A stretch of DNA of 64,000 nucleotides from Hydractinia symbiolongicarpus (taxonomy: Eukaryota; Cnidaria; Hydrozoa; Anthoathecata; Hydractiniidae): positions 28,059,828-28,123,827 of the forward strand of contig NC_079876.1 in NCBI RefSeq assembly GCF_029227915.1, in the 5' to 3' direction. A program made the position numbers and the translations under genes. The notes below the pieces were generated by a model. It searched no databases. It was not told the origin of the DNA and saw only the letters and a list, made by a program, of their open reading frames with translations. Shown here one piece after another: positions 4,814 to 52,303 of the stretch. Each line of letters starts with the position of its first letter. Position 1 is the stretch's first letter.

Positions 4814-5228
4814 CTATTTCTTCTTGTCCTTGTTTTCCTTTGTTGCACGTTCCCTTGCATCTTTGTACTCATTATGAGCTCTCGCAACAAGGCCTGATAA
4901 TTTTGAATGTATCTAATATGTACAAGGCTGGGAGCTCCATTCCTCCTTGAGCAAGGTCTTTTGAAAATTTCCTCTTCCCAGTTAATCTCACTAAAAGCTT
5001 ACCACCATTCTTTATGTAAAAGTACGTAATTTTTGACAAGAACTTTGTTACGTGCCCCAAAGTTACACCGCTGTATTTCAACGCCATTGCGTACTTATCT
5101 TCGACAAGTGCACCAGGTCGTGTTTCATGGCAGACTGTTAGCTCGCTGTCCACTTTCGCTTCCCATTCACTCTGGTAAACATGATGCCCTCTCACACAAC
5201 ACTCCGTAGAGAATTCTTTTTCTATCAT
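4814..5228 (-). pseudogene. HIRAN-like gene A (frameshifted)
   Basis: A small protein of the HIRAN-like type. Conserved points are VRGHHVYQSEW near the start, E..PG.L..DKYA in the middle, LGHVTKFLSK, a TGKR block and a glycine-rich GGMELP segment, shared with three other copies in this window. HIRAN domains (as in HLTF) bind DNA 3' ends; DNA binding here is inference. I start at the ATG at 5228, since the frame upstream has no other ATG. Near 4915 the frame must shift to continue into a lysine-rich tail ending at 4814, so this copy is broken. It diverges from the transposase that starts 238 bp away. Confidence 0.65.
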
Positions 5229-5465
5229 AATGGGTATATCGTTTGCATTTGGCAAAAGTTCTTTAAAGCAAATCTTTCACAAGCTTTCCATGTTGTGTAA
5301 CGATGGATGTTGTGTTTCGAATGTAAATGAATTTTTATGCTTCGAATCGAATGTTTTTCCGTTTCGAATGTCTGGATTTTTTCACATGTTTCGAATGTTG
5401 CGATTTTTTGATTTTTTTGTCGCTATTCATTCTCGTCAGCTTTTCAAAGCAAGAGACACGTGAAA

Positions 5466-6999
5466 ATGGCCTCACAAGCTAAGATTCAAAATTATTTTAA
5501 TAAACGGCCTGCTACAACAAGTGAAGATTTCAAGTTTTCTGAAACCTGTGGATGAAAGCGAAATGGATGATCTTATTTGTACAGGAGGTAAGAAACTCTT
5601 TTCCTGTGCTTATGATTATTTTGATGTTTTTCGAGACATTATAATGAACTGTTTTATTAATTTTTCTTAGGGACCTCAGGATTCCCACCCCCTTCAAAGA
5701 AACGCGTCGTTGGTAGACCATCAAAGGTATTCCGGCCGGAACAGTTTCAGCATTTGATGGAAAAGTATCACGACTTCCACGAAATTGTGAATTCCACACA
5801 GTATTATGAGCAGTTATTAGACGTTCACTTCACGTCACTTGCATCGCTCAACCCTGACCCACCTTCCAAAACACGGAAACGCTTCACCCAAAGGACAACA
5901 CTGCACTGGCATTTGATATCAATGAGTCAACAGTCCGAGGAATGGTCAATACTCGCCCGCTACCCGATAACAAAAAACTATCCAGCAAATGTAATCTTCC
6001 TGGATCCGGTAGACCGTTAACTTATCCTGCTGAATTAGAAGATCAACTGTTGAAGTGGGTTTTTTGTTTTACGGGATTTGCATTTTCCAGTTTCAGTAAT
6101 AAGCTTTCAAGAGCAAAGCACGTCATCCAACCTCACAATCCATCATTCATTGCCAGCAGAGGTTGGGCTCAAAAATTTCTCAAGCGAAAGGTTGTGCCTT
6201 TTGCCTCGTGCTCGTACTTCGATCAGTCAGAAACTTCCAAATCAGTTGGAAAACGTCCTTAGCAAGTTTTATCAGGATGCTGCGCGTTTCATGCGGATTG
6301 GAAAATACCCTTTGTCCCTAGTTGGTAACATGGACGAAACACCTGCGTTCTTCGACATGGTTCCAGTCAAGTGCATTTCGAAAATAAGGGAGAAGGAGTG
6401 CGTGGTTCGTTCTTCAGGAAGTGAGAGAAAGCATCTGACGGTCGTCCTATCAGCTAAGGGAGATGGAAAAATGCTCCCATCTATGATTATCTTTAAAGGT
6501 AACACTGAAAAAACTATCCGTAATTTAGAAATCCCTGCTGGATTTGTTGTCAAAACGCAGAGTAAAGCCTGGATGGATGATGAATTGATGAAGATCTGGG
6601 TTGAAGAGATCTGACTAAAGCATGTACGCACTGAATGTAAAAAGTTTGGTTTCGGAAATTCCTTGTTATCATTTGATGCTTTCTCCGCTCATTTAACTGA
6701 CGGAGTCAAGGCCCAATTATTGGAAAATAATTTTGATATTCTCTAGATACCCGCAGGTTGTACTTCAAAATGTCAACCAATGGACGTCTGCCTTAACAAG
6801 CCATTTAAATCCGTTTTGAGGAAGTGTTGGGTCAATTACGTTGCAACCGTCGTTGAAAGTTTCCGTGAGGGAAATAGCAGTAGCAGCAAAATCCCCGTAC
6901 CAACTCGCCAGCAGATGATTGGGTGGATAAAGGAAGGATATGACTACCTTGCTTAGGACAAGGAAATGGTGAAACGATCATTTGAAGTGTGTGGTATTA
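5466..6999 (+). pseudogene. Tigger/pogo-like DDE transposase A (decayed)
   Basis: Degraded DDE_1-superfamily transposase. The first exon starts MASQAKIQNYF, a PCNA-binding motif (QxxIxxYF). A one-base shift follows near 5535, then an intron with GTAAG donor at 5588 and TTCTTAG acceptor at 5670. Then come a helix-turn-helix region (AFDINESTVRG), the SGRPLTYPAELEDQLLKW segment, and the catalytic core: NMDETP (first Asp), LLSFDAF (second Asp) and QPMDVCLNK (third Asp), with 35 residues between the last two. Breaks: frameshift near 6190; in-frame stops at 6612 (TGA), 6744 (TAG) and 6954 (TAG). It ends where HIRAN-like gene B begins on the other strand. Confidence 0.8.
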
Positions 7000-7501
7000 C
7001 TTCCTTTCTAACTTTTTTATCAACAGAGTCTAAAATCTTTTTAATACACCTTTCTGTAAAAGACACAGCTTTGTCAGGGCCAATGAGTGCGTAATGCACT
7101 GGAATTTCGAGACCATAACCTGCCCCACGGTCCACGCGTTTCCCAGTGACTTTGCATCTGATCGTACAGCTTGGGATTTTAAGAAATTTATTGAACAATT
7201 TGCCTAAATTCATTGGAACATGTCCAAAGACTTTTCCTTCCAGCAAAACAGCAACTGCAAAGCTATCATGTTCATTGTCGCTTTCTGGTTTCAAACAGAG
7301 ATTTTAATCGTCGACTTTCGGTGTCCAAATGTCCATATAAGCATGGTATCCTCGAACGAAAGATTCAAAACAATACTCCTTCTGTTTTATAATAATTACT
7401 TCTATCTCTTCATCAATGTTTTTGAGTAACATTTTAATCAAGAAATTCTTCTTCTTAAGCAACATCTCTTGACTGGTAGAAATGTTTTGAATGGTAGACA
7501 T
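6953..7501 (-). pseudogene. HIRAN-like gene B (one in-frame stop)
   Basis: Reads from the ATG at 7501 through VRGYHAYMDIWTPKVDD to a TAA at 7304-7306, then on in the same frame with ESDNEHDSFAVAVL, VFGHVPMNLGK, TGKRVDRG and GLEIPV. These match the other HIRAN-like copies, so a single stop splits one gene. The last ~15 codons before 6953 are antisense to transposase A, so the natural end is probably near 6999 and has been lost. It diverges from transposase B with a 190-bp gap. Family assignment rests on the E..N..D.(Y/F)AV.V and GHVP motifs. Confidence 0.65.
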
Positions 7502-7691
7502 GTTTTTCGTTGTTGTTGTTGTTTTTTCTCGTATCTCGCATCGTTTTCTCGCTCTCTTGTCTGTTGGTTTGTTCTCTCAATCTGTTGTTTAATGTCATTG
7601 GAAGACATTGCATTGTGACTTCTTTCGCAATCATTAAAAATTCGAATGTTTGTTGGAAAATCGAACATAGAACAAGTCTAGTTATTTCAAC

Positions 7692-9279
7692 ATGGCGACG
7701 GGAGGAGAGAGGTTGTCGAAGCAGCAGCTTGCTGGTAAATTTCAAAAAAAAACTTTAACATTAGATGAAAAGATTAAGTTTTTGGATTTTGCTAAGAAAA
7801 ATCCGAAATTTGGATGCAGAAAACTTGCAGATATTCACAGTATCGGGAAAACAGCAGCAGCTACGATCTTGAAGAATGAAAAGAAAATTCGTACTCAATA
7901 TGAAATGTTTCGTGAAAAAGACAAGAAACGTGATCGTCATGGAAAGGGCCATAAGTTGAATGAAATTTTATTTGAATGGTACCAGGGATGTACTGCTTCT
8001 AACATCTACCCAAATGGTGTTATGTTGAAAGAGGAGGCGATTGCAATAAAAGAGCAACTAAAGAGCAGTAAATTTGACGATTTCAAAGCTTCTGATGGCT
8101 GGCTAGATCGCTGGAAATCCACCTTCTCAATCAAAGAACGTCGCATTGTTGGCGAGGCTGGAGATGTATCTACAGAAACCGTTTCTTCTTAGATAGAGAG
8201 GGTAAACGAATTGATTGAAGGCTACTCTTTGGATAACATTTGGAACATGGATGAATCTGGCTGTTTTTTTAAAGCCTTACCAGATAAAGGATTAGTCTCA
8301 AAAGGAAAACAAGCAAAGGGTGGCAAAAAATCGAAACAAAGATTAACTGTCGCTTTTTTTGTCAATGCAGCTGGCGAAAGAGTTGACGAACCCATTATTA
8401 TCTGAAAAAGTAAATCACCACGCTGTTTCAAAAGATTAAAGGATCCTTCACGCCCTGCTGATGTTAATTACTTTTCTAATCCTAAGTCTTGGATGACATC
8501 GGATGTCATGGGAACCGTATTGACACGTTTTAACAGAAAGGTAGTACTCGAAGATAGAAAAGTGATCCTTTTTCTCGACAATGCTCCCTGTCATCCAGAA
8601 TCCATTATTGGCCAATTCTCGCAGATCAAGATCGTCTTTTTACTGAAAAATACAACTTCGAGGTTGCAACCACTAGATGCAGGCATCATTCAAAATTTCA
8701 AGGTCAAATATAGAAAAAGACTTGTTAAATACGTATTGGCAAGAATCCAGGAGAACACATCAGCAACTAAGATTGTCAAGGCTATCAACGTGCTTGTTGC
8801 TATTCGCTGGATACAAGATGCGTGGAAAGAAGTATCCAGCTCGACAATCAAAAATTGTTTTCAGAAATGTGGCATCAAAAGAGATAGCGAGGAGATAGAA
8901 GAAAATGACGGAGATGATGATTTGGAGTTTGAGGCACTTGTAAAGGAATTTACCACAGACTTATCCGCAGCAGAATATGTCAACTTCGACGCAAACGTTC
9001 CAGCATCAGAACCCATGATTAACGAATTAGAAATCGATTGGCGACAGAAGGTCAGAGATTTCTGAGGACGACCAAGATGACGAGGATAATGACGACTATG
9101 GGCCAGAACAAGAAGAGCAGATGAGCTGCAAAGAAATCATCACAACGTTGGACAAAATGCGCCGTTGTACCGTCTTCGATGAAGAAAGTCAAAAAATGCT
9201 GACGGCAGTTACAAAAAAGATTGAGAATCTACAAATTAAATGCAAGAAGCAAGCCTCTATCAAAGACTTTTTCATGTAA
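7692..9279 (+). pseudogene. Tigger-like DDE transposase B (broken)
   Basis: The frame starts ATG GCG at 7692. An N-terminal CENP-B/HTH-type DNA-binding region (LTLDEKIKFLDFAKKNP, then DDFKASDGWLDRWK) is followed by the DDE core: NIWNMDESGCFF (first Asp), VILFLDNAPCH (second Asp) and SRLQPLDAGI (third Asp), with 32 residues between the last two. Two in-frame stops (TAG at 8190, TGA at 8403) and one frame shift near 9050 interrupt it. The shifted frame supplies an acidic stretch and a C-terminus QASIKDFFM ending at 9279, a textbook PCNA-binding box (QxxIxxFF). PCNA binding is documented for Drosophila pogo transposase; here it is inferred. Confidence 0.85.
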
Positions 9280-9410
9280 AGTTTGATTAATGTTTCTGAA
9301 TATAGCTTATATACCCTCAAATCCTAGCCTCTTAACTTCTTACTTTAAGCCTAGTAAAGCATAAATAACCTTTTTCGGTCAAAATCCCATCTAAAATAAA
9401 ATTTGACACA

Positions 9411-9490
9411 AACTCTCTATAAAGCGGACATCCCGTTAAAGCGGACAGTTTTTTTGGTCCCAATGGTGTCCGCTTTAACGGGATTCTGTA
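9411..9490 (+). repeat. Tigger-type terminal sequence with 17-bp hairpin
   Basis: CTCTCTATAAAGCGGACA is typical of the ends of Tigger/pogo-group elements. Inside, the 17 bp at about 9428-9444 are repeated inverted at about 9464-9480 around a T-rich spacer. This may be the right end of unit B or a solitary end. No partner end was found in the window. Confidence 0.5.
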
Positions 9491-10680: not shown

Positions 10681-10947
10681 TATCTTGATGAATGAAACTT
10701 CATAAAAAGAAAAATGAGTTTCCCCACTGATTCTTTAAAATTTTAAAATAATGTAGTTTTCCCAAATTTCTCATAAATGTATAGAGTATTGTTAAAAAAA
10801 GGAAAAGTAGAGGAAACTGCAGAAAGCACATTCGATTCTCCTTTTCATTCGATGTATGATTCAATTTGTATGGAACGCCAAGGCTGCCTTATTCGATGAT
10901 TTCATTCGGTCATAAAACACTATTTGTCGCTATTCGATTTTGAAAAA

Positions 10948-11300
10948 ATTCATTCGATTATGCGCTAAATTCATTCGATAATGCGCGAAGTTCATTTGAT
11001 TATGTGCTAAATTCATTCTATTATGTGCTAAATTCATTCGATTATGCGATGAATTCATTCGATTATGCGCTGAATTCATTCGATTATGCGCTGAATTCAT
11101 TCGATTATGCGATGAATTCATTCGATTATGCGCTGAATTCATTTGATTATGCGCTGAATTCATTCGATTATGCGCTGAATTCATTCGATTATGCGCTGAA
11201 TTCATTCGATTATGCGCTAAATTCATTCGATTATGCGCTGAATTCATTCGATTATGCGCTAAATTCATTCGATTATGCGCTGAATTCATTCGATTATCGC
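10948..11300. repeat. 21-bp satellite array 1
   Basis: About 17 copies of a 21-bp unit of the form ATTCATTCGATTATGCGCTGA, with variants at the edges. Because 21 is divisible by three and the unit lacks stops in two frames, it makes spurious open frames on both strands (heptads NSFDYAL and AHNRMNS). No other sign of coding is present. Confidence 0.95.
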
Positions 11301-11325
11301 TTAATTTTATCAAGCATAGTGATTA

Positions 11326-12664
11326 GTCAGAAATCAAAATGAGGGTTACAAGAAAAGAAAACAGTTCTTGGCACCTTATCGAAGCATGAATGATCCCAGG
11401 TTTGATTGGTTAAAAAATGATTTTCTGAAATATCTTTCCGATTGGAAGGAGAGCATTTCAAATCGTCCTGGAAATTTTACACCTAATGCAAAAGACCGTA
11501 TGCTTTTGTCTTGGCAAACGTATGAAAAAAACCCACAATGTACCAGTTCGAGTACATCTCAAACACATTGCGCATGCAAAGTTAATCGCTCCTGTCACTG
11601 GCAACATTAGAGGGCTGTATAACCAGAAACGACGTGTTTCGTGAGCATTGTCGACAATCAACCATTAAAGAAACATACAAAACGTAAAAGTAGAATGTTT
11701 ACATTTTTTTATAATTAACGAATACTGGCCGGTTTTGATATTGTACTGGTAAATAGAAAGCCCTAGGTCAAAAGTACAGACCGAGCCTGTTACAGACGAC
11801 TTAAAGACGATTACAGACGAGTTACAGACGAATCACAGACGAGTACAAACGAATCACAGACGAGTACACACGAATCACAGAAAAGTTACAGACAGGTCAC
11901 AGACAAGCCACAGACAAGTAACAAGTCGCAGACGAGTTGATTTATTTTTTTATCTTGATGAATGAAACTTCATAAAAAGAAAAATGAGTTTCCCCACTGA
12001 TTCTTTAAAATTTTAAAATAATGTAGTTTTCCCAAATTTCTCATAAATGTATAGAGTATTGTTAAAAAAAGGAAAAGTAGAGGAAACTGCAGAAAGCACA
12101 TTCGATTCTCCTTTTCATTCGATGTATGATTCAATTTGTATGGAACGCCAAGGCTGCCTTATTCGATGATTTCATTCGGTCATAAAACACTATTTGTCGC
12201 TATTCGATTTTGAAAAAATTCATTCGATTATGCGCTAAATTCATTCGATAATGCGCGAAGTTCATTTGATTATGTGCTAAATTCATTCGATTATGCGATG
12301 AATTCATTCGATTATGCGCTGAATTCATTCGATAATGCGCTGAATTCATTCGATTATGCGCTGAATTCATTCGATTATGCGCTGAATTCATTCGATTATG
12401 CGCTGAATTCATTCGATTATGCGCTTAATTCATTCGATTATGCGCTGAATTCATTCGATTATGCGCTGAATTCATTCGATTATGCGCTGAATTTATTCGA
12501 TTATGCGCTGAACTCATTCGATTATGCGATGAATTCATTCGATTATGCGCTGAATTCATTCGATTATGCGCTGAATTCCCTCGATTATGCGCTGAATTCA
12601 TTCGATTATGCGCTGAATTCATTCGCTTATGCGCTGAATTCATTCGATTATGCGCTGAATTCTA
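11326..12664 (+). repeat. Tandem duplication unit 2
   Basis: Second copy of the 1.27-kb unit, including the P-element C-terminal fragment (11345-11710), the ACAGACGA repeats (11790-11950), unique DNA and a longer satellite array. The P-element piece has the same truncations as copy 1, so the damage came before the duplication. Confidence 0.9.
12218..12664. repeat. 21-bp satellite array 2
   Basis: About 21 copies of the same 21-bp unit as array 1, more homogeneous in the middle. It is cut at 12664 by the hairpin/MITE segment. One more partial unit (TTCGATTATGCGCTG) resumes at 13191, showing that 12665-13190 was inserted into the satellite. Confidence 0.95.
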
Positions 12665-12667
12665 AGT

Positions 12668-12806
12668 AGATATACAATAGGTAAAAATAGGTTATTGAGA
12701 TTTATTAACCCGAGGTGATTTATATTCAACGACGCGCAGCGGAGTTGAATATAATATCACCGAGGGTTAATAAATCCAATAACCTATGTTTACCTATTGT
12801 ATATAT
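12668..12806. repeat. Long imperfect hairpin
   Basis: Two arms of about 65 bp, starting ATATACAATAGGTA on the left and ending TACCTATTGTATAT on the right, form an imperfect inverted repeat around a short GC-rich loop (about 12733-12746). A small fold-back MITE is the simplest reading. Confidence 0.8.
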
Positions 12807-20195: not shown

Positions 20196-20744
20196 TATTA
20201 GCATAAAATGCTTAAATGTTTATAAAAATTCCTGTTCTTACTGTGCTTCCGATATTTCGAACATTTTCTAATTCGAACAAATAATTTCGTCCCTTGCGTG
20301 TTAATCAAATGTCATTTCAAAGTGGGTATATTTTCTCTTGATTTTCAAAATTTTCTCTAATAAAATTGTTGCAATTCACTGTCATTGGTGAAGGCGTCAA
20401 AATTGGCAGGAACTACATGTCCAACTTCCCATTTCCTTGCTCCTACAACTAAAGCCAAAACAAAACTTTCTTCTGTGCTCTTCAAAAATAAAGCAATCAG
20501 GCGAGAGAACTTGATGGGGAATATAGCTAATCAGTGTACCATCCATTTTAAAAACTTCGACATAGTGTTTATCATGGCTCAATGCTTCTTACCTATTCTC
20601 CTTTTTGCATTTCAGTTTTTCATTCAGTTTAGGAGTCGATGTTGTTTTACACACATGATGTTTTCTATGACGCACCTAAATGCAATTTATATGACATGCG
20701 TAGTTGATAATTTTGGTTCGTGACATTATTCATAAAACTTTTAC

Positions 20745-20990
20745 AATGCACAATTCTTTTGCGGATAAGCAAGTCAAAGGAGGTGGAAGAAAAGCTTTTA
20801 GTGAAATGGACGAGTCCGTTCTTGAGTGGGTACATGAAAGACGCAGTAGAGGTTTGCGAGTATCAAGAAACTCACTATGAAGAAAGCTAAAGTTCTTTAT
20901 GGCGAAATGGTAAAATATGGTGAGCCAAACGGAGCTTTTAAGACAAGTACCAGGTGTTTCAGGGGATTTATTAACCGATAAGGGCATCAA
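20745..20990 (+). pseudogene. Tigger-like transposase N-terminal fragment
   Basis: GGGRKAFSEMDESVLEWVHE followed by RRSRGLRVSR, a frame change, then KKAKVLYGEMVKYGE and AFKTSTRCFRGFINR is the DNA-binding region of a pogo/Tigger-type transposase (CENP-B-like HTH). No DDE core follows. It lies directly upstream of a HIRAN-like fragment on the same strand. Confidence 0.55.
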
Positions 20991-21019
20991 TATGAATTAT
21001 CCCTTATTTCTAGGAGAAT

Positions 21020-21390
21020 TGCCAATTGTGCTTGTGCAGGAATATGAAATAAGCTTCTTTGTAAGGGGCTACCATGAGTATTGCGAGACATGGACTCCTA
21101 TCGTTGAAGAGGTCTTACAATGCCAAATAGAGACAGATAATGTTATAGATAAATATGCAGTAGCAGTGATGAAAAAAGATAGAGTTGTTGGACAATTATT
21201 GAAGGGGAAAAGCAGGAAGTTTGTGAAAACTGTGTTCTCTTTTCTAAGCAGATGTTTGCAATATGGCAACAGTGAGAATAAATAGGAAGGCTGTGAACAA
21301 AGGAAAGGGAATGAAAGTTCCCTGCACAATTACAATCGCTGGTAGTAAGCCAATGTTAAAAAGTTTTGTAAATAGTGATATTAAATAATT
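21020..21390 (+). pseudogene. HIRAN-like gene D fragment
   Basis: The protein carries SFFVRGYHEYCETWTPIVEE, ETDNVIDKYAVAV and RVVGQLLKGKSRKF in one frame. After a shift near 21255 it continues with KAVNKGKGMKVPCTITI. This is the same motif order as the HIRAN-like copies at 4.8, 7.0 and 27.6 kb. It is broken and has no clean start. Unlike the other copies it lies on the same strand as the neighbouring transposase fragment, perhaps after rearrangement. Confidence 0.6.
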
Positions 21391-22650: not shown

Positions 22651-25069
22651 GGAGCTATATAGCTATAGCTTTGACAAAGCTCTTGATCAAGACTTGAAAG
22701 TACTGGAAATTGCTTGTACAGTTCTGCTTCCATCCTGATTGTTGGTGACAATTTGTTGGTTGAGGATCTCAGAATCTTAACGTCATTGGAGTTGTTTCTG
22801 TGTTTTGAATATTACAGTGGGCACCCTGTTTTGTTGTCGTTATTTAAAGAACACAAAGGTAAGGTATTTAAATCTGTTGATAGCATTTTGCGAATGGTAA
22901 CATCTTTTGAAGCTCTTGATGCTTCAGGTTCTTCGTGCTCTAATAAGTTGGTAAAAAATGAAGCCATTGGTAACTGTAAAAATCAAAAGTGGTATAGCTT
23001 ACTTTGCATATTTGCTTTGTCGTCAGTGTCATTGGCCAACATTAATACATATTTTCCGGATTGTGGTGACTCAAGAGATAAAATTTTATTTAATTGTATA
23101 ATCAGTCCAAGAAATCCCACTCCTTCTTTAAGGACATTGAAATTTCTATTTTGTTTACAAAGTTTTAATGTTGACTCAAGTATCACCTTTAAGCCTAATC
23201 ATTTTGTTCCCATAATTTTTGTGCCTAACGGTACAAAGCGAAAGTTACCGCACATCACAAAAAAAGAAAAAATGTCTTGTGTGCCTACCAAAAAAATTTC
23301 AGTTCAGTCAAAGCTCAGTTTTTGGACTGATAAATGTAGTGACACTTTAATTTTTCCAAAAGTTATGCCATTAATAAATGTTCATAAACCTGTTGTGTCA
23401 AATCCTTTAACCATCACACCAAGTTTAGACAGCAATAGTCTCATTTTTGAATCCTCACATACAATTTGTTATCCACCTGTCCAATCCCATGTTGCAACAA
23501 CAAGCATTGTCACACAACAGATTTCACAATCAACTGTAATTTCAGAAGCTTGTGCAGTTACAAAAATGCCCTTTCGTACACCATCACCTTGTAGTAACAT
23601 GCCAGACAGTTTATTACCTGTGAATAGATTTGATGTGTCATTGTACCGTGAAAAAATGAGAACTTTGAAAAATGACACTTCAGCAATTCAAGACCTCATT
23701 AAAAACGTTTTTAAACCAAATAACAATTATGTGTTCCCAAAAACTAAAAGATGCTTTCGTTTTGAATGGTTAAACAAATTTCCTTGGTTGTGTTATTCAC
23801 CAGCAGTTGATGGTGCATATTGTCTTCCGTGTTTTATTTGGAAAGAAATTTCCAACCAAAACCAACAAAATTAAAAAACTGTTTTCTGAGTCATTTAGAT
23901 ATTGGCCAGATGCCAATGCTCATTTCCTCAAGCATAATTCTAGCACTGGACTTCATGCTGATACATCAGCTGTATTTACTAGCTTTATAAGTAATTATTT
24001 TGGTAAGTCCCAACCAATTGACATTCTTGTTGATAGTAACAGGAGAAAAAAAATTGCTGAAAATAGAAAAAAGCTTGTCCCTATTGTTCAAGCAATAATC
24101 TATTCTGGTAGGCAGGGCCAGGCATTAAGAGGTCATCGAGATGACTCCCAGTATCATGGTGAAGTAGGGGAGTTTTCTTGTGGAAGGGTGGGGAATTTTG
24201 TGGAATTGTTGAATTTTAGGGTGCAAGGTGGAGACACTATTCTTGCTGAGCATTTGAAAAACAGCCCTAAAAATGCAACCTATATCTCCAAAACAACACA
24301 AAATGAGTTAATAAGTTGTTGTGGTGAATTTATTTTGGATAAATTAGTTTCTGAGATAAAAAACAATGTGTTTTATTCTATTCTTGCTGATGAAGCCTCT
24401 GATTCATCTCACAAAGAGCAAATGTCTTTAGTCCTGCGTTTTGTGGATGATTCATTTAACATTAGAGAGGAATTCATCCAGTTTATCCATTGTGATGAAG
24501 GACTTTCTGGTAAAGACTTACAGTCTGTTTTATGCAAGTGTTTAGAACATTTGAAGTTGGACATAAAAGATTGTAGGGGTCAAGCATATGACGGTGCAGG
24601 TGCTGTGGCTGGTTATAAAAATGGTCTCTCTGTACGCATTCTTAGTCTTAACAGAAAGGCCATCTATGTTCACTGTAACAGCCACTGTCTAAATTTATCT
24701 GTGGGAAAATCTTGTACTGTGAGCTTAGTTTCACATGTTATGACTAAAATTAAACACATTACTTATTTTTTTAAATTTTCTGAAAAGCGACATCAAGCTC
24801 TTTTGGATAACATTAAAAAATATTGTCCATTAGCTACTGTCACTAAACTTACAGATGTTTGTCGCACTAGATGGGTTGAAAGAATAACTGGTTTAGATAC
24901 TTTTCAGGAGCTATATATTGAATTTATGTTACCCTGGAAGAAATGAAGTTAAATTTAGAGAGGAAATACAACCATGATACTTCAAAACAAGCAGTTGGTT
25001 TTTTTCATCAAATAGCCAACTTTGAATTTGTTGTCACTCTTGTAATTACAAGAAGTATTTTTGATGTTA

Positions 25070-25290
25070 CCTTAAGGGAACTTATTTTGGCGGGAACTAA
25101 TTTTGGCGGACGAAGGAAATCTAAAAAAAATTTAATTTTGGCGGGAACTAATTTTGGCGGATCAACGAAATTTTTAATTTTGGCGGGAACTTATTTTGGC
25201 GGGTGGCGGTTTTTTTTAATTTTGGCGGGAACTTATTTTGGCGGGTCAGCGGATTTTTTAATTTTGGCGGGAACTAATTTTGGCGAGTGA
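25070..25290 (+). repeat. Left end and subterminal repeats of element C
   Basis: Five copies of TTTTGGCGGGAACT(A/T)A, spaced roughly 45-50 bp apart. GGCGGGAA resembles an E2F-family binding sequence. They may be transposase-binding sites, host-factor sites, or both. Confidence 0.85.
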
Positions 25291-25383
25291 AGGATTTTTT
25301 CAAATTTCAACGAAAATTTTCTTTGGTAAAGATGTAGAAATAAGCATTACAAAGCAAAGAATTTTAAAACAAATACTAAAAAT

Positions 25384-27224
25384 CTACTCTTCTTCATCGT
25401 CTATGATAATGTCAAATGCATTCCGACTAAAGTCTATGTCATCCTCGTCACGCGTGTACTCCTCTTCTTTGTCATCGTCATTTTCGACTCGCACGTTGAT
25501 GAAGCTATCCTTTAATAAATCTGGCGCATTGATTATGTCGGTTATGGGCTGAGTAATTACACTATTGCTTTCTGGCAGCGGTGATAGATCTTGAAAAGGG
25601 TCAAGGGATTCAAGTGAAGTGGATCCCATGCGAACTGCGTCGTAAATTCCAGATGCTTTCCACCCATTCAAAACGACTTCACGGCCATCTGCCGAAGTGA
25701 TATGGTTATAAAACTGGAGGAGCCAACTTGCATGAAGAGGCTTGATGGTGGTCAGCTTTAATTGAATATTTATATCTTCGATCTTTTTGTTAAGGGATAG
25801 CTCTTTCTCGATCTGTTTTGAATACCATTCAGTGAACAAATTTCTCATGAATTGCTTGCAATGATTATTCACAGTAAGATCCAAGGGCTGGAATATATGT
25901 GTCATGTTACTTGGAACCAAAACCAGGAAGATGTTGTTCTTCTTCAGCAATTCGGTAACTTCCTCAGTAATTTGTCCTCGAAAGACATCGAATATTAGAA
26001 GAGCAGCTTGCTTTGGGTTATTTAACTTCTTCCTCTGGTCTTCAACGTGCTTTAGAACGATCTCTTTGATGACTTTGATGGATTCTTGTGTATTGCTGTA
26101 GTGTTTGGGATTAACGCTTAGTGAGAACGATTCGGGGAATTCAAACTTTGGGAGGCTTTGATTTGTTTTCCCCCCATATATCAGTTGCATTGGCAGAAAA
26201 GAACCATCAAGCGTAATAATAAAGGTACCAGTAAGGCATCTTTTGTCGGAAGATCCAACGATAGGGACGGACGATGAACCCTTTTTCGCCATGGTGTGAT
26301 TCATTCTTGGAACAAACTTAAGAGGTGTCTGGTCCAGATTCATAACAAGTTGGTGAGGGATGCTGTGTTGTTCGATGGTCGAAACAATATCGTGAAGAAA
26401 TAGTAATTCGCACTCCTTTTTGGCTCCTTCAGTGATTTCAACTTTGGAGGTCGTTTTCATTCTTTTCTTGAAACCCATTCTCTTGAAGAGGCTTTTTGCC
26501 CAACTGTTATCAATTTTAATATGCCCCAACTCAAATTGAGGGTTTCGTGATATTAGAGCTTTCGCTGCAGCGGTTGCAACTGTTCTTGAAACAACACCTC
26601 CTCGATTTCTCAGTGCAATTAAAAATCTTTGTACCATCTCATCTAGACTGCCAAGGAACAGAGGTCTACCGCGTTTCAAAGGAACAAATTTGGTTACCAC
26701 GCTACGTTTTTCTCGGGTTGAATCTTTCAGCTCTTTTTTGTAAAGATTGCCAAATCTTCGAGCTGTACTCTCACTTAACGGCCTGTCTTTGGTTTGAAAC
26801 TTTGTGATTGCAGCCGCACCACCATGAATCGCAACATATTTTCCGATATCAAATCTTTCTTTTTCTGACCAACGGTTGTATGATTTTTTGCCACTGGATT
26901 TAACATTTTCAGTCGCGTCTGTAACAGCTTCGTAGTCTAACGAACCAAGGGATGATTCTTGCTGGAAGTCAGTTGGTTGTGGGCCTAAAATGAATAAAAC
27001 GAACCACTATGTAATTGCGAATTTTGACCAAAAATTAAAAATTTTCAAACAAAGAAAGAAACTTCTTCGCAGGTAGGTATAACAAAAAAAAACATCAAAG
27101 AGAAATACTTACTTTGTTCCCTAGAACTGTTTGAAGGTGTTTCGTCTGAAGTTTTTTCCTTTTCAGCGGCCCTTTGTTGAGCTTCTTTCTCTTGTAATTT
27201 AGCTAACTTCCTGATGTAAGACAT
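25384..27224 (-). CDS. Tigger/pogo-like DDE transposase C (two exons, intact)
   Basis: Exon 1 runs 27224-27113 (ATG at 27224, ending GAACAAA before donor GTAAGT). The intron is 27112-26985 (128 bp, acceptor TTTTAG). Exon 2 runs 26984-25384. The exons total 1,713 nt, giving 570 residues and no internal stop. Exon 2 begins with a charged linker and a helical DNA-binding region (SYNRWSEKERFDIGKYVAIH, then CENP-B-like SRNPQFELGHIKIDNSW). The catalytic core shows VMNLDQTPL (first Asp), LLIFDVFRGQ (second Asp) and IFQPLDLTVN (third Asp), with 35 residues between the last two. The C-terminus is very acidic. It would cut and join the element's ends in the nucleus. It diverges from the HIRAN-like gene across 355 bp. 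Family DDE_1 is clear; the exact clade is not. Confidence 0.9.
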
Positions 27225-27579
27225 TTTGAAAGCCGGGAGATAAAAAAGGAAACGTAAGTTATCTGTATCCTGTATATTTACTCGAACATAAACATTCCAT
27301 TCACTTGGCCTATATTTACACTAAAAATCGAACAAAAACATTCTTTTTTTCTTGGCTAAGGCCCGTTTAGACTACCCAATCGAACAAAAACATTCTTTTT
27401 TTCTTCGCTAAGGCCCGTTTAGACTAACCAATCGAACAAAAACATTCTATTTAATTGGGAAAGTTCGGTCTACACTGACAAATAGAACAAAAACGTTCTA
27501 TTTTCATGCTAGGCAATTAAAAAATCGATCGATTGACATTTTTGTTTTTCATCAGAGCTAGAAAAGAAAAGACGTCCAT
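27225..27579. promoter_or_regulatory. Bidirectional intergenic region with ~60-bp tandem repeats
   Basis: Between the diverging genes of element C, about four copies of a 60-65-bp unit occur at roughly 27326-27530, each with AATCGAACAAAAACATTC and most with CTAAGGCCCGTTTAGACTA. The position implies a shared promoter. The repeats could bind the transposase or host factors. No TATA box is obvious. Confidence 0.55.
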
Positions 27580-28230
27580 ATGGCTTACAACAAGACGTTC
27601 GAGTTTACAGCTGCTGTCAGAGGATTCCATTATTATAAAACTTATTGGAAACCTGAGGAAAATCAATCACTGGACTGCTTTCATGAGAACAACAATGTTT
27701 TCGATAGATTTGCAATCAAAGTTTGTGAATTCGGAAATGACAAACCAGTTGGCCATTTACCCAAAGAAATCTCAAGGGTTACAAAATTTCTTCTGGACAG
27801 AGGAGCGTCTATGAAATCCACGTTGACAAGTGTACACTATCGAAGATCACCTCTCGTTCAAGGAGGCTTGGAGATCCCCTGTAAAATAACTGTTACTTTA
27901 CCAGGGACAGTAAACAATCTTTTGGTTCTTGCAAGATACCAACAACTTGTAGAAGCCTTGTATACAGAGCCGAAAGAGGAATTGATTCTTGGTTCGTTCT
28001 TACATATTGCAGTTATTTTAGATGTCGTGGTTCCAACCGAAGAGAGACCAAAGCGTAAAAAAAATACAGCCAAAAGCCAAAGCAAAGAGACGAAAAAGCA
28101 AAAAGATATTCGAAACTTTTTTGGAAACACCTCAGCTGCACCAGCCCCAAAAAGGCAAAAAGTTAACAACAAACCTAAAAAGTCGTCACCATCGTCAAGC
28201 AAGGACTTAGAAATCATAAATATTGATTAA
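27580..28230 (+). CDS. HIRAN-like accessory protein with PIP box (intact)
   Basis: 216 residues, single exon, ATG at 27580. Residues 6-20 carry EFTAAVRGFHYYKTYW. Residues ~25-75 show ENNNVFDRFAIKV and KPVGHLPKEIS, the HIRAN signature (E..N..D..AI.V ... GH.P). Residues ~90-110 hold a basic patch and GGLEIPCKITV. The tail is lysine-rich with KQKDIRNFFGN at residues 173-183, a canonical PCNA-binding box (QxxIxxFF), then a basic KRQK segment likely to be a nuclear localisation signal. HIRAN domains (HLTF) recognise DNA ends at stalled forks, and PIP boxes tether proteins to PCNA. Hence a role bringing the transposon machinery to replicating DNA is a reasonable inference, not shown. Confidence 0.8.
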   Translation: MAYNKTFEFTAAVRGFHYYKTYWKPEENQSLDCFHENNNVFDRFAIKVCEFGNDKPVGHLPKEISRVTKFLLDRGASMKSTLTSVHYRRSPLVQGGLEIPCKITVTLPGTVNNLLVLARYQQLVEALYTEPKEELILGSFLHIAVILDVVVPTEERPKRKKNTAKSQSKETKKQKDIRNFFGNTSAAPAPKRQKVNNKPKKSSPSSSKDLEIINID

Positions 28231-28336
28231 AAATTATCTTGTATTAGAGGTTTATTATGACATAATATTTCTAGCGCAAAGGTATATTTCTAAAAGATAT
28301 AAAAAATTGAAAAAAAGTTGATTTTTGTCGATTTTT

Positions 28337-28546
28337 TAAGGGGAACTTATTTTGGCGGATCAACGAAATTTTTAATTTTGGCGGGAACTTATTTTGGCGG
28401 GTGGCGATTTTTTTTAATTTTGGCGGGAACTAATTTTGGCGGGTGAGTAAAATATTTAATTTTGGCGGGAACTAATTTTGGCGGATTTTGCCCCAATCCG
28501 CCAAATCCGCCAAAATTAGTTCCCGCCAAAATAAGTTCCCTTAAGG
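28337..28546 (+). repeat. Right end and subterminal repeats of element C
   Basis: The outer 41 bp are the inverted terminal repeat. Just inside (28337-28485) three TTTTGGCGGGAACT units lie in the same orientation as the left end, and the block begins TTAAGGGGAACTTATTTTGG, so a left-end copy seems duplicated here in direct orientation. Confidence 0.85.
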
Positions 28547-29633
28547 TACTCTGCCTGTGACACAACTGCTTCAAAATAAATCTATAGATATAATGGACTC
28601 AATAGATTTAATAAAAACTTTACAAAATGTTTTAAGACAGACAAGAAACAACGTCGACCATTTTCATGACTTATGGTACAAGGAAACTCTTTCTCTCTGT
28701 GCAAAGGTTGGTATAGAGGAGGAAAAAAAGAGGACTGTTGGAAGACAAATTAATAGGGATAATCATCCTTTCACCTGTATGTCTGAATTCTACAAAAAAG
28801 CTGTTACTAACCCTCTCTTAGACCACCTTAACAGTGAAATAAAGTCTAGATTTGAACCTATTGCACTTAGTGTATATAACGGCTTATGTATTGTCCCTGC
28901 TAAAATGATAAACCTTCTTTCCAATGGTAAGGTTAATTGGAAAGAAAAATTTACATCTTTTTCCTCTTTTTATGAAGATGATCTTCCTAATGCATTAGCT
29001 TTAAGTGGCGAATTAGAACTATGGGAAAGGTACTGGCTAGATTTCAAAGGTACCAGGCCTGAAACAATTGCCTAAACTTTAAAGTCGATTGATTTAAAAG
29101 TATTTGTAAATTTAAATGTGGCACTGCGTATCTTAGCCACTATACCTGTCACAACATGTGAGTGTGAGCGCTCTTTTTCATCCATGAGAAAATTAAAAAG
29201 CTATACTCGCACAACTATGGTCTCTGACAGACTTAATGGACTTGCTCTCATGTACATACATAATGAAATAGTGCCGGATGTGCATCAAGTCATAAATAAG
29301 TTTGCTAAAGACAAAAGACGTCTTGAACTTATATAATAAATTTGAAATAAATAATTAGATACAAATAAAATACTTACCTTATGTAATTACTTTACTATAC
29401 ACTTTAACTATATATACTTTTCTACCCCACCCCTGCTACTTACTTTTCCTTTCTACAGGTTCAGCTTGCTCTGGCTGATAGCACCTGTTCTAGGAGTCTC
29501 CTGTCAGGAGCTTTATGGCAACTTTTAACTACCTATTACGTTATTTTATTTCGTTTTATATCACCTCCACGCACTTTACCCCCGGGTTTAGCTTGCTCCT
29601 GCTAATAGTACCCGGTTTATTGGAGCGCTAGCT

Positions 29634-36196: not shown

Positions 36197-39100
36197 CAGG
36201 GGCGGATCTAGGATTTTTTTATGGTTAGGCAAATTTTGTTTTTTTTTCAATTTTTTTTACGAGATACCAGAAGACCAGAAAGAGGTTTTCGAGGTGGTAA
36301 CAAGTGCTTTTCGGCTACTAAGGCTATATAATAATATAAAATACAAATAAAAGTTTTGATACATAATGCGATAACTACTCCCGTCTTTTTACTATCTTCC
36401 GACGTTTTGTATATGCCAGAATAATGTTTTTTATAAATTTGAGGTTAATCTAATAACCAGGCAAACAATTTTTCTTCTTTCTTCTTTCTTCTTCACTTGT
36501 ATATAAGCAGAAACAGAAGTAATACCAATGGACGAATGAATCTAGCATTGAAATCAAAATAAATGATCAATTGTCAAACAACAAACCATGAAGTGAATGG
36601 AGCGCCACTCAACAGATACAATTATTTGCATCAAGACCAGTCAAAATGATAGGGTAAAAGGCTAAAGGTAAAAACAATCATAATAAAAAACACACAAAAT
36701 TTAGGAAAAACAGAACTTAAGTAATTACGTAAATTGATTGTGAAATTTGGACCTTACTCTGGAGGTGCTTTGTTACAGTCAATTGCTTCCAGGAGAGGCC
36801 ACAAAGGCAACTCGAGAATTAAAGTTACAGAAAACATTTTTGTCAAAAATAGGTAAGGTAAGTACATAAAAATGTAAGTATAATTTAGGCAATGATAAGG
36901 CATATACTAATATAAGTATAATTTAGGCAAAAGAATAGGTATGGTAAAATAAGAGGTACATATGTATATATAATAAAAGAAGTGTTCTACAATAACTTGA
37001 AGTAAGGTTTTATGAAGAAGGTAATAATGTAATTCACTTAAAGTTTAATCGTCTATTTTTCAATGAAAATTTCTCAATAACATCAGAAATATTAGGAATG
37101 ATGTTTTGATGTACATGCATTAAGGCTAAGCCATTTAGTCTATCTGAGTCCATGGTTGTGCGAGTAAATGTTTTTAACCTCTTCATGGCTGAAAATGTCC
37201 TTTCACACTCGCAAGAAGTCACAGGTAAAGTGGCTAAAATTCTCAAGGCCACTTTTACATTTTCAAACCCAGTAAAATTGACAGATTTCAATGTGGAGGA
37301 AATGTTGTTAGGTATAGGCCCTTCATATGATTTCCAGTAAATTTCCCAAAGTTCCAATTCATGTTCGATAGATTGAACATTGGGCAAGTCTTCTAGATAG
37401 AATTGAAAGAAAGCATTGAACCTTTTTTTCCAATCTACATTTTCTTTGATAAGACTCAGCATTTTTTCTGGGAGAATAGCTAGCCAACTATAGCAAGACA
37501 ATGCTTTTTCTTCAAACCTGCCAGTAAGTTCGGAATGTAAATGATCCAACATAGGTATTGTAATATTCCTTTTATAATGATCAGAAGGATTTTCTGATGG
37601 TGTGTTGGATCTAAAAAGTGTTATACCCGAGGTTCGAGGACTTGCCTCAGTAACATGTAGTTCCTTAGCAAGATCAGAAGCTTCTTTGTACCACTTTTCA
37701 TGGTAGTAGTCAATGTTGTTTCTAACCATGGTAGTACGAGACTTGAGAGCATCTATCATATGTATACCATCCATGATATCATTTGCTCTGCTTTGTAAAA
37801 GCTCAGTTACTTGTAAAGTCATCAAAAAAATATTTTTAGTGATCATAAATGTAGCCATGAAATCAAATGAGGTTAGGACTTTTAAAAAAGGAAGAGCTTT
37901 AGAGGATGTGTCAGCATTACAAACATGATTTAAATTTAAATTCATTTCATCTAATGTGTTTACAATAGCTACATAAAGGTCATTAAATACCTCCATACCT
38001 TTAATTCTCTCAACCCACCTTGTTGCACAAACATTAAATAATTTATATTTTGTAGCTGATGGACAGTGTTCCTTGATATTACGTTCTAAAATCAACCGCC
38101 TAGTTTCAGAGTAATTAAAAAAAATGAAATGTCTCTAATCTGTCCCATAACATTCTCAACTGCTTGAATGCCACAGGTTTTACAGATTGCTAAATTTAAT
38201 CGATGGCTATGGCAATGCGTATACAAGGCTTTTCGGTTTATGCGTAGGATTCTTGCTGCCAAACCATTTCTAAAACCTGCCACTGAACCTGCACCATCGT
38301 AACCTTGACCTCTACAATCCATTATATTTAGCTGAAGATCTTCTGCGAGACATTTTAGGACAATTTTACATAAACCATCACCTGACAAACCTTCCCCACA
38401 ATGAACCAGTCTTAAAAATTCTTCCCTAACATCACAATTTTGGTCAACAAACCTTATACAAAGAGAAAATTGCTCTTTGCATGAACTGTCCATGCATTCA
38501 TCACCAAGAATAGAAAAAAATTTACTGCCTTTTATTTCAAGAACAATTTTTTCAGTGATGACTTCACCAATACAATTAATCAACTCATTCTGAGCTGTTT
38601 TTGAAATGTAGGTAGCATTTTTTGCACTGTTGTCAAGAGTTTCTTTGAAAACAGGGTTTGCACGAGCTCTATAATTTAAAATTTCTATGAAATTACCTAC
38701 TCCCCCAGATGAGTAACTGCCTACTTCAGGATGATAACTGCTATCATCTCTATGACCTCTTAAAGGGATATTTAGTCTTCCACACAACAAAATTGTATCG
38801 ATGATTGGCTCAAGTTTGGCTTTATTTTCAGAAATCTGTTTACTTATTTGCTGATCAACAAGTTCAGAAATTGGTTTGCTTTTACCAGAATGCTGGCTCA
38901 AATATGTTGTAAACAGTGAAAATGTTGCCTGGTGAAGACTTTTTACAGAGCTAGATGTTTTTTCATGGTTTTTGAACAACGTTGTAGCACAACGTTTTGC
39001 ATTAACAGGCTGTGTTACCAGATTTCTTATGTTTTTTAACAAATTAGGAAACTTATTTCCAAAAAGAACACATGGCAAACAGTAACCACCATCATAAGCA

Positions 39101-50383: not shown

Positions 50384-52303
50384 CAGACGAACTCGTGTAA
50401 TTCGACTCTTCAGGGGGTCTCACGATTTGGTCGAATTATAGGATTTCAACCTTTTTTCGGCCAAATATTAAAAGTAAAGTATGGATGCTTTGCGCAGCGT
50501 AAAATACTGTGCGTTGGCTATAAGAAAGGGTACAAGTTTTTTGTTTTAGTTTTGTAAGAATCACTACTTCTATTTTTTCAACAATAATGAACAATTATTT
50601 GTTTTGAAAAAAGTCAGTAATGGAAGATTGTGTCAAACCGGCTAATCTTCTTTGCTTGATTTACTCTGATACTTTCACAAGCAAGGGATCTAACTGCAAA
50701 TCAGCTGTAAATAATGCTAATCTATTCAGAACTTCGATTGCTTCATTAACTTTATTTCGTGATGGTGGTGATATTGGGTTCTCATCCTCGTCATTGCTGA
50801 AATCTTCAAGTTCAACTTGGCTGTGAAACGTATTTGTTAACTATTTGGTAAATAGACAATGATTGAGATTCGTTTGTCACGATCTTTCTGTCAAAATCAA
50901 TGAGGGTGTCAGCATTAAGGTCTTCAGGTAATAAGTCTGGCCTTGCTTCACGAAGTTGATTCAGGTCAAACTGCAACTCTTCTACATTTTTCTTCCTCGC
51001 TGTCGCCTTTGCACTATCCATCTCTTTAAATGGATCGTCATCATCATCTATAGCAGCTTTACCAGCGTCTTCGGAGATCCCAGACTTTCGAAAACAGTTG
51101 ATAATCGTTCTCTCAGTCACATCATTCCAAGCTGTTCTAAGCATCATCATGGCTTCGAGAATTGATGTTTGGGGCAGTTTTTTAACCTTTTCTAATTCTT
51201 TTATTTTCTTACGAATAACAAGGGATCGGTATTTAGCCTTCAATGACCTGAAAGGTACAGAGAAGAGAAAGAGTGATAAAAACATATGATAATCGTTTTT
51301 TCCTGTATAAGTGATTAAAGGTGTTTCCCACTAGGCAAATTTAATAACAAGATGAAAGGAAGATGTGTTTAGTTTAATAAGTTTAAACTGATGTAATGTT
51401 GCAACTTACAATTTCTTCCTTTTCATAACGGCACCGTTAAGTTTGTCTAGTGGTAAACAAGTTTTACAGCTCACTCATTTTCCAGTAACAATGACATTAG
51501 CAATGTTCATTGAATTTAGCTCGTAAAAAGTAAGACTGTTTTAGCATATCGACTAGTTTCGAACGTCAACTTTCCCGAGTGCTACAAAATTAACTATCGA
51601 GTTCGATCCTCTATTCGTTTCGATCTATCAACCCGTTAACTCGATCCGCTATTTTTGTAACACTTTGGAAGTTGACGTCCGAACATTTTTAATCACAACT
51701 TCTAATAAGGGAATTTTCATTACCTCTCTTTCCAACCTCTCAACCATCCATTATATGCTGTAAAATACTTGTAGCTGAGTGCTTTCGCAAATTCTTGCGC
51801 TTTTTCCACTAGAATAGGACCATTGATTGGAATGTTGTGACCACGCATTGATTTAAGCCACTTCAACAAGGCTTCATTCAACATATCGTAAGTTCCTGTT
51901 TTGACACGCTGACGTTTTAATGACGAATTTTCAAACGAATCAAAGATCTTTTGTTTGTTTTTCATCTAGGTAGAATTGGTACTGCCGGAAACATTAAAAT
52001 GTTCAGCCACATATTTACGCGGCCTACCTATTTCTAGCTCTTTCAACGCATCATATTTAACTTTCAAAGTGACTTCATTGTGCTTTCTTTTAGTTGTCAT
52101 TTTGACTTGTTTGTATCATCAGCTGCGCCAGTACTCGAAACAAAAATTTTAAACGTAAACAAGCATTAGAATTTCATGATTCGATTTAAGAAAATTTCCA
52201 AAGTCGAATTACATGATGAAAAACATGACAAGGGGACTGAAGAATTTGGTCGATTTACATGATTTGTCGACTTACAGGAGGTCGATTTACATAAGTTCAA
52301 CTG
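50384..52303 (-). mobile_element. Tigger-type element lacking its catalytic core
   Basis: The right end in reverse complement reads CAGTTGAACTTATGTAAATC and is followed by TA (52304). The left end at 50384 reads CAGACGAACTCGTGTAATTC, preceded by GA where TA is expected. The ends are similar but diverged, about 1.9 kb apart. Inside are the two halves of a transposase gene but no DDE region. Confidence 0.7.
50812..52100 (-). pseudogene. Tigger transposase remnant: DNA-binding and C-terminal parts only
   Basis: From ATG 52100: TTKRKHNEVTLKVKYDALKE (CENP-B N-type), an in-frame TAG at 51966-51968, then the second DNA-binding half (LLKWLKSMRGHNIPI, YFTAYNGWLRGWKER) to 51724. The C-terminal part (51247-50812) carries SLKAKYRSLVIRKK and TAWNDVTERTIINCFRKSGI with an acidic tail. 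The catalytic DDE region is missing. A GTAATG donor at 51723 and a CTTTCAG acceptor at 51248 would join both parts in frame (GWKER/SLKAKYR). The 476 bp between hold an imperfect palindrome (51558-51590 with 51648-51688). It may be a deletion derivative or a DNA-binding-only protein. Confidence 0.7.

Follow-up and report, generated by a model that had tools for sequence, protein, structure and literature searches.

A pogo/Tigger-type transposon of Hydractinia symbiolongicarpus with a HIRAN gene divergent to its transposase

A two-gene transposon

In a stretch of 64,000 nucleotides from Hydractinia symbiolongicarpus (contig NC_079876.1, positions 28,059,828 to 28,123,827; hereafter the window) we analysed a transposon of 3477 bp at 25070..28546. 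It carries a DDE transposase gene on the minus strand and, head to head with it, a gene for a HIRAN protein on the plus strand. HIRAN is a DNA-end-binding type of protein otherwise familiar from DNA repair. Almost certainly, it is a conserved accessory gene of this element. As an explanation of the whole we favour a two-gene transposon of the Tigger/pogo type in which the HIRAN protein would bind DNA ends, dock to PCNA and perhaps shield transposition intermediates from HLTF; in our judgement this proposal is evenly poised between being right and being wrong.

The ends of the element are exact, as the original prediction had stated. The terminal inverted repeats (TIRs; left 25070..25110, right 28506..28546) have 41 nt each and are 100% complementary. 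A TA target-site duplication borders them (left 25068..25069, right 28547..28548), and with it the inverted repeats are perfect over 43 nt (25068-25110 and 28506-28548). The element interrupts a hAT (DUF4371) gene on the plus strand, whose left part (23807..25069) is itself frame-shifted and whose right part follows at 28549..29336. When the flanks were joined through a single TA they gave a continuous frame, which aligned without a gap to a hAT paralogue at 37034-38095 (62 of 144 amino acids (aa) identical). Thus the element ends at 25070 and 28546 and the TA duplication are exact. Two copies, L033 and L034, are 99.97% and 99.74% identical to the element over its whole 3477 bp and each is flanked by TA. 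Because of these near-identical, TA-flanked copies the family of the window's element has probably moved recently. Besides the empty site and these two copies, five copies of a second element, the B element described below, support the TA duplication.

The TIRs begin with CCTTAAGGG and hold an array of an 18-bp repeat, a difference from pogo/Tigger elements. The repeat, GGGAACTWATTTTGGCGG, is present in six copies in the left array (25076..25286, plus strand) and in four direct and two inverted copies in the right array (28341..28540). Of its 13 matches in the window with up to three mismatches 12 lie inside the element, while shuffled sequences gave a mean of 0.06. The right end also contains a near-perfect palindrome (28459..28532; 33-nt arms, 8-nt loop, 97% complementary), and 28420-28546 is predicted to fold as DNA into a long hairpin (-42.4 kcal/mol, z -8.9). 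An inverted-repeat scan of the window listed no counterpart of this palindrome at the left end. A 19-bp word of the TIR had zero matches in viral contigs and four single matches in prokaryote contigs, about what chance gives for 257 billion bases by our own estimate. The Rfam scan of the window yielded nothing at the Rfam cut-offs. Between the two genes lies a divergent intergenic region (27225..27579) with a 52-bp tandem repeat that carries AATCGAACAAAAACATTC. This tandem repeat, at 27315-27452, is a candidate for bidirectional promoter elements.

The transposase and the HIRAN protein

The transposase gene consists of exon 1 (27113..27224) and exon 2 (25384..26984), separated by a predicted GT-AG intron of 128 bp (26985..27112), all on the minus strand. 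The predicted spliced protein is a stop-free frame of 570 aa with a DDE_1 domain in exon 2 that scored 40.1 bits (cut-off 22), in agreement with the earlier claim of an intact spliced DDE transposase. The spacing of the last two Asp residues, counted from the translations, is 35 (DD35D) in this protein and in an older copy in the window, unit A, and 32 (DD32D) in another, unit B; here, too, the original prediction was correct. Both spacings fall within the pogo range of the DDD triad. With the CENP-B/Tc5-type helix-turn-helix (HTH) profile (cut-off 22.2) the intact transposase reached 14.5 bits, that of unit B 49.4 bits and a further transposase of the window, D, 50.5 bits. There were no relatives of the transposase in the viral contigs or plasmids searched.

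The HIRAN gene (27580..28230, plus strand) encodes 216 aa; across 500 dinucleotide shuffles of the region no open reading frame (ORF) exceeded 138 aa. Pfam assigned residues 8-86 (27601..27837) to the HIRAN domain with 32.5 bits and an E-value of 7.8e-8 (PF08797, cut-off 24.7). The predicted HIRAN-like gene on the opposite strand is indeed intact. The Pfam scan of this protein revealed no domain besides HIRAN, hence no SNF2 motor and no RING. The protein retrieved nothing from NCBIfam and a score of just 12.9 bits from PHROGs, had no relatives in the viral contigs searched and matched no phage record. When all four HIRAN-like ORFs of the window were compared with PF08797, as had been suggested, the intact copy passed, the ORF of unit B stayed at 24.4 bits and the other two gave no hit.

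The predicted fold of the 216-aa protein is that of HIRAN; on the strength of this model the unrelated fold that had been considered as an alternative appears to be ruled out. In the alignment with HLTF the positions of D94, H110 and K113, which we take to be contact residues for single-stranded DNA, are kept. N90 and N91 of HLTF align to N38 and N39 and are kept as well, while Y72 and Y93 align to Y18 and F41, i.e. Y72 is kept and Y93 is replaced by F. According to PMC11237066 mutation of N90/N91 disrupts the function of the HIRAN domain of HLTF; for its Y72/Y93 we refer to PMC4666394.

Divergent pairing across the genome

The window's own assembly (one genome, 480.9 Mb, 76 contigs) was searched with PF08797 (150 of 251 candidates scored), DDE_1 (150 of 778), the window's transposase exon (96 of 1048), the window's HIRAN protein (150 of 784) and a second HIRAN query (150 of 777). 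All pairing counts from these candidates are lower bounds, and a match with no listed neighbour is not equivalent to the absence of a gene. The sole control for the counts was random placement; for the set of 98 transposase matches it took contigs C7, C10 and C15 to be 28 Mb long.

At least 63 of the 98 window-type transposase matches had a HIRAN match within 3 kb. All 63 pairs were divergent, none tandem or convergent; with random placement 0.165 were paired on average and never more than 2 in 200 trials. Sorted by identity to the window's transposase, at least 21 of 21 were paired at 90% and above, 11 of 14 at 57-89%, 30 of 44 at 44-56% and 1 of 19 below 44%. In both loci of the last class that we inspected, L053 and L054, a divergent HIRAN gene was present though absent from the lists. 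Among the best 150 of the 778 DDE_1 candidates at least 72 had a match of either HIRAN query within 3 kb, 71 of them divergent and one tandem (random placement averaged 0.66 and peaked at 4 over 300 trials). Over both sets, 134 of 135 co-located matches were thus divergent and one was tandem. The reverse view was similar: at least 72 of the 150 matches of the second HIRAN query had a match of the DDE_1 or the transposase-exon search within 3 kb (71 divergent, one convergent), and at least 64 of the 150 matches of the window's HIRAN query had one of the transposase-exon search (all divergent). The window's HIRAN protein recurred with 100% identity over its full length in at least 22 matches and the transposase exon in at least 19 full-length matches at 100% as rounded, its own locus included in each case.

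Among the best 150 of the 251 PF08797 candidates 91 matches were listed, all above the cut-off, and these grouped by the length of their open frames; the best of them (80.9 bits) resembles an exon of the HLTF gene of the host. Seventeen of the 20 loci with the best Pfam HIRAN scores were divergent pairs; HIRAN genes of this genome are therefore not usually found without a DDE neighbour, the finding that would have spoken against the original prediction. In one of the 17, L014, another HIRAN gene, on the opposite strand, lies between the two partners. As to the three exceptions, L013 is probably a host HLTF exon, L015 has just a transposase fragment 4 kb away, and in L026 no transposase was found. 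Four PF08797 matches with no listed transposase were inspected: two had a divergent transposase, L057 had none in the 3 kb seen, and L055 was not recognised by the hidden Markov model (HMM) of the family. The genome-wide divergent pairing compared with random placement speaks against chance co-occurrence in this genome and supports the claim that HIRAN is a conserved partner of the transposase.

In L035 (3404-5060), a copy of a related family with a HIRAN protein of 236 aa, the HIRAN gene is intact and the transposase is cut to 105 aa by an internal deletion. Some other HIRAN matches also have no listed transposase. Many matches of the second HIRAN query at 34-42% identity, with frames of 170-173 aa, contain a single in-frame stop (one TGA or one TAG), which is perhaps an intron in that lineage.

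Lineages, co-divergence and selection

Three or more lineages of transposase carry the pair. HIRAN-bearing relatives of the window's type (DD35D) extend down to about 40% identity and include L042, L053, L054 as well as the families of 236 aa and 214 aa. The second lineage, the B type (DD32D), has CAGTGGAATCCC at its ends and a length of 2824 bp; ten of its copies were compared and the five inspected were flanked by TA at different sites. The third lineage is the second pair in L030, which has the ends TACAGTAGACTCCCGG. The pair is bounded by TIRs of 25 nt in L042, 24 nt in L030 and 15 nt in L053; in L054 the enclosing TIRs are imperfect.

In seven transposase-HIRAN pairs the distances of the two proteins correlated with r 0.895, a value reached by 3 of 5040 permutations. 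The ratio of nonsynonymous to synonymous differences per site (pN/pS) of the HIRAN codons was 0.36-0.49 in seven comparisons between families, and that of the transposase was 0.44 in one; these values are rough, with synonymous sites near saturation. The recent copies L039 and L040 gave 1.17 with very few changes. Taken together, the HIRAN gene shows signs of purifying selection. Capture of a host gene was ruled out by selection and co-divergence. The HIRAN ORF of L053 (1195-1950, minus strand) has a Cys-rich N-terminal stretch that resembles a zinc-binding domain.

PCNA-binding motifs

The basic C-terminal tail of the intact HIRAN protein contains a PCNA-binding (PIP) box, QKDIRNFF (28099..28122, plus strand). 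The pattern Qxx[ILM]xx[FY][FY] was met in 0.7% of shuffles of the 216-aa protein. The HIRAN protein of the 236-aa sister family has the PIP box QKDIRSFF, and the tail motif DIRx[FM][FL] is kept in 15 of the 22 HIRAN loci compared, copies included. The DIRKFF of L040 may resemble the start of RFC1.

The spliced transposase of the window's element has no canonical PIP box. Elsewhere the motif is on the transposase: transposase A begins with QAKIQNYF in its N-terminal region (5475..5498, plus strand), and the C-termini of transposases B and D contain QASIKDFF (9250..9273, plus strand) and QSSITDFF, respectively. In the B element the HIRAN protein is devoid of a PIP box and the transposase has the C-terminal end RKQSSIKDYFK; the transposase of the second pair in L030 ends with KKQCSIKDFFKS.

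Eight pair families were counted, namely that of the window, the 236-aa family (with its transposase seen just in the internally deleted form), the 214-aa family, L042, L053, L054, B and the second pair in L030. A canonical PIP box is present in four, on HIRAN in two and on the transposase in two. Three more have a PIP-like motif alone: the 214-aa family and L042 on the HIRAN tail and L054, by eye, at the N-terminus of the transposase. PIP motifs on partners of the pair families are new beyond what the original prediction had claimed.

A proposed mechanism and its alternatives

We propose a cut-and-paste transposon of two-gene design, whose DDE transposase and HIRAN protein would be expressed from a common divergent intergenic region. 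As suggested by its family, the transposase would cut at the TA-flanked TIRs. The HIRAN protein probably binds DNA ends, and its partly conserved HLTF contact residues suggest that these would be the 3'-OH ends that excision or strand transfer exposes. The complex would be taken to PCNA by a PIP-type motif, which in the window's lineage is part of the HIRAN tail and in other lineages part of the transposase. We lean slightly towards such a PCNA contact, and less than we otherwise would because a canonical box is present in just four of the eight pair families. Since the element's protein comes without a motor domain, it may resemble in its action the HIRAN domain of HLTF taken by itself, which competes with HLTF at 3' ends. 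In the most speculative step, transposition intermediates would be shielded from the host's HLTF, with ends and gaps being steered to replication-coupled repair. In PMC11237066 the isolated HIRAN domain is reported to inhibit the removal of Cas9 from cut ends by HLTF; this favours shielding, because the element would make such an isolated domain. That competition with HLTF is the main purpose of the gene is a tentative reading, which we hold to be less likely than not. Slightly more doubtful is the joint reading: an animal branch of Tigger/pogo elements would be built on a transposase and a HIRAN end-binder, the PCNA-docking motif would have moved from one partner to the other during evolution, and HIRAN would block or redirect the host's fork-remodelling machinery at transposition intermediates, as an anti-repair or repair-steering device of a DNA transposon.

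Several observations weigh against this explanation. Concerning PCNA, 7 of the 22 HIRAN loci are without DIRx[FM][FL]: L046, L047, L048, L050 and L052, with the tail shifted or altered relative to close relatives, as well as L053 and L054. The canonical box is on HIRAN in just two families, and no PIP-like motif was seen by eye in the L053 pair. The background of the pattern is 24 matches in the six-frame translation of the window, and it occurs in 2 of 70 other window ORFs of at least 100 aa. Concerning DNA ends, the structure model was built from a 5-row alignment and has a low predicted local distance difference test score (pLDDT) of 57.5 overall, with ten-residue blocks of residues 1-110 at 60-85. 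HLTF chains match by sequence at just E 0.007-0.01, and the position of Y72 varies across the HIRAN family. The HIRAN domain of yeast Rad5 has no 3'-OH preference according to PMC7804152, and because of this 3'-end specificity is not to be assumed. Concerning the pairing, 35 of the 98 and 78 of the 150 transposase matches had no HIRAN nearby among the best candidates listed, one HIRAN match of the second query was convergent to its transposase match, and within the window no HIRAN was detected near transposase D, even with the family HMM.

The strongest alternative, a serious one though we consider it fairly unlikely, is that HIRAN is a positive recruiter for repair or replication. Together with PCNA it would bring host gap-filling and ligation, or HLTF, to the donor and the new site; transposition would occur at forks and the gaps would be closed. 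Consistent with this, in seven of the eight pair families one of the two proteins has a PIP or PIP-like motif, and the title of Iyer 2006 reportedly presents HIRAN as a repair-recruiting domain. PMC5371812 likewise provides a link, as pogo transposase is described there to bind PCNA and to have a PIP box, with the relevance of the motifs unclear. The present data do not separate recruiting from shielding. The isolated HIRAN domain reportedly inhibits the action of HLTF instead of activating it (PMC11237066).

Distinctly less probable is a structural role, in which HIRAN would be a DNA-binding subunit of the transpososome that pairs ends or binds the 18-bp repeats or flaps, comparable to the second proteins of Harbinger and CACTA. 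Its co-divergence with the transposase and the dense subterminal repeat arrays of the window's element would fit. However, the intact protein has no Pfam domain beyond HIRAN, and the arrays were looked for in the window's lineage alone. Very improbable is a regulatory role, in which HIRAN would act at the divergent promoter to control how the element is expressed or silenced. The head-to-head layout in 134 of 135 co-located matches speaks for it, and the words common to the intergenic regions of the window's element and units A and B are weakly above chance: for 7-mers 28 of 2000 random triples were as good. Yet this word test is weak, since 229 of 2000 triples were as good for 8-mers, and HIRAN is not known to read double-stranded sequence. 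Finally, a passenger, i.e. a host HIRAN fragment captured once or the ordinary clustering of mobile elements, could be suspected in a window dense in such elements, where three of four HIRANs lie less than 400 bp from a transposase stretch (not decisive, as 16% of the window qualifies) and with random placement and no second transposase family as pairing control, but it is taken as refuted in this genome by the genome-wide counts, the near-uniform orientation, the several lineages, co-divergence and purifying selection.

Relation to known systems

Elements of the pogo/Tigger kind are the source of the CENP-B, POGZ, JRK and TIGD genes. The present elements share with this part of the IS630-Tc1-mariner group the DDE_1 domain with DD32D or DD35D, the TA duplication, in B and D a clear Tc5-type HTH, in several units a transposase with a PIP box and, in the B and L030 families, a CAGT-type TIR, CAGT being a typical start. 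The window's element differs in its second gene on the opposite strand; a 2020 survey of pogo elements describes one or two ORFs, encoding transposases (PMC7386202). We found no report in the partly surveyed open-licence literature that ties HIRAN to pogo, Tigger or another eukaryotic DNA transposon, and the two-gene HIRAN design is apparently new within the pogo/Tigger kind.

With HLTF and Rad5 the element's HIRAN shares the Pfam family, the predicted fold and a number of contact positions, N90/N91 among them. It differs in being encoded by a transposon as a stand-alone protein, its open frames measuring about 190-250 aa, and by the basic tail with a PIP-type motif that marks the window's branch. 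Phage and bacterial HIRAN proteins likewise occur in mobile genomes, their function in phages being described as unclear, and the passage of PMC7785012 on them mentions no transposase partner.

PIF/Harbinger, CACTA and MuDR elements also combine a transposase with an element-encoded second protein, and the second proteins of these and of RAG-like elements differ from HIRAN in being Myb-like, TnpA-type or RAG2-like. RAG-like (RAGL) elements show the same combination with convergent genes, in contrast to the divergent HIRAN pairs (PMC7204232, abstract). Fungal DNA transposons with a TET/JBP dioxygenase resemble the HIRAN elements in having one accessory gene across diverse groups, but there it is a DNA-modifying enzyme, and the main text of PMC12730594 is without HIRAN or pogo. 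Among Tc1/mariner-group elements, the ciliate TBE and Tec elements have extra ORFs, one of them reversed in Tec; these are a zinc-finger protein, an unidentified ORF or a recombinase, and HIRAN is absent from the main text of PMC7325037.

A conserved HIRAN partner that has, in the window's branch, a PIP motif gives a direct handle on how pogo/Tigger transposases use PCNA. The proposed mechanism would suggest a transposon's answer to the HLTF-type stripping of proteins from DNA ends. In addition, genes that animal annotations list as stand-alone "HIRAN domain" genes may belong to transposons.

Older units in the window

Two older units had been described as divergent pairs that overlap. The divergent pairing holds for both, and both are decayed with stops. 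The overlap proved to be spurious and the junction lies near 6999: the units appear to overlap because the listed end of HIRAN B (6953-6999) is an antisense reading into transposase A. Unit A comprises a decayed HIRAN (4893..5276, minus strand; E 1.9e-10 in phmmer from the intact protein) and a decayed DD35D transposase (5466..6999, plus strand).

In unit B the HIRAN (6956..7576, minus strand) has one stop; with 29.5 bits it exceeds the PF08797 cut-off if the genome search reads through the stop. The decayed DD32D transposase of this unit (7692..9279, plus strand) scored 91.6 bits for DDE_1. Unit B aligned to the young 2824-bp B element in four collinear DNA stretches of 68-79% identity, with 77% over 7714-9046 of the transposase and 79% over 124 nt between the right terminal region (9363..9486) and the right end of the B element. 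HIRAN B was found by phmmer from the intact protein at E 0.032 and by the family HMM, for which it was not a seed, at E 3.4e-17. HIRAN A and fragment C served as seeds, so their scores with this HMM are not independent. The best shuffled decoy in the phmmer search reached 9.2 bits.

The fourth HIRAN sequence, fragment C (20914..21282, plus strand; phmmer E 1.1e-7), adjoins a transposase HTH fragment (20746..20877, plus strand; HTH_Tnp_Tc5 E 0.0032, 17.8 bits, under the cut-off of 22.2), as had been noted, but in tandem and not divergently. The divergent partner of the HTH fragment may be a weak, possible HIRAN relic at 20592..20675 on the minus strand (family HMM, 15.4 bits, E 8.8e-4). Transposase D is a decayed Tigger-type copy at 50607..51965 on the minus strand.

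Other features of the window

An ORF at 44282-45052 (plus strand) contains a ubiquitin-specific protease domain (PF00443, E 3.4e-16). Just upstream, ORFs at 42243-43584 resemble a non-LTR (long terminal repeat) reverse transcriptase; the protease ORF may derive from a host gene that was captured, or may belong to an element. Tandem-repeat ORFs with ALNSFDY or MNSAHNR units occur at 10930-11342, which is open on both strands, and 12274-12669. Judged from the ORF translations, a further hAT-like transposase gene, split into several ORFs, lies at 46400-48681 on the minus strand.

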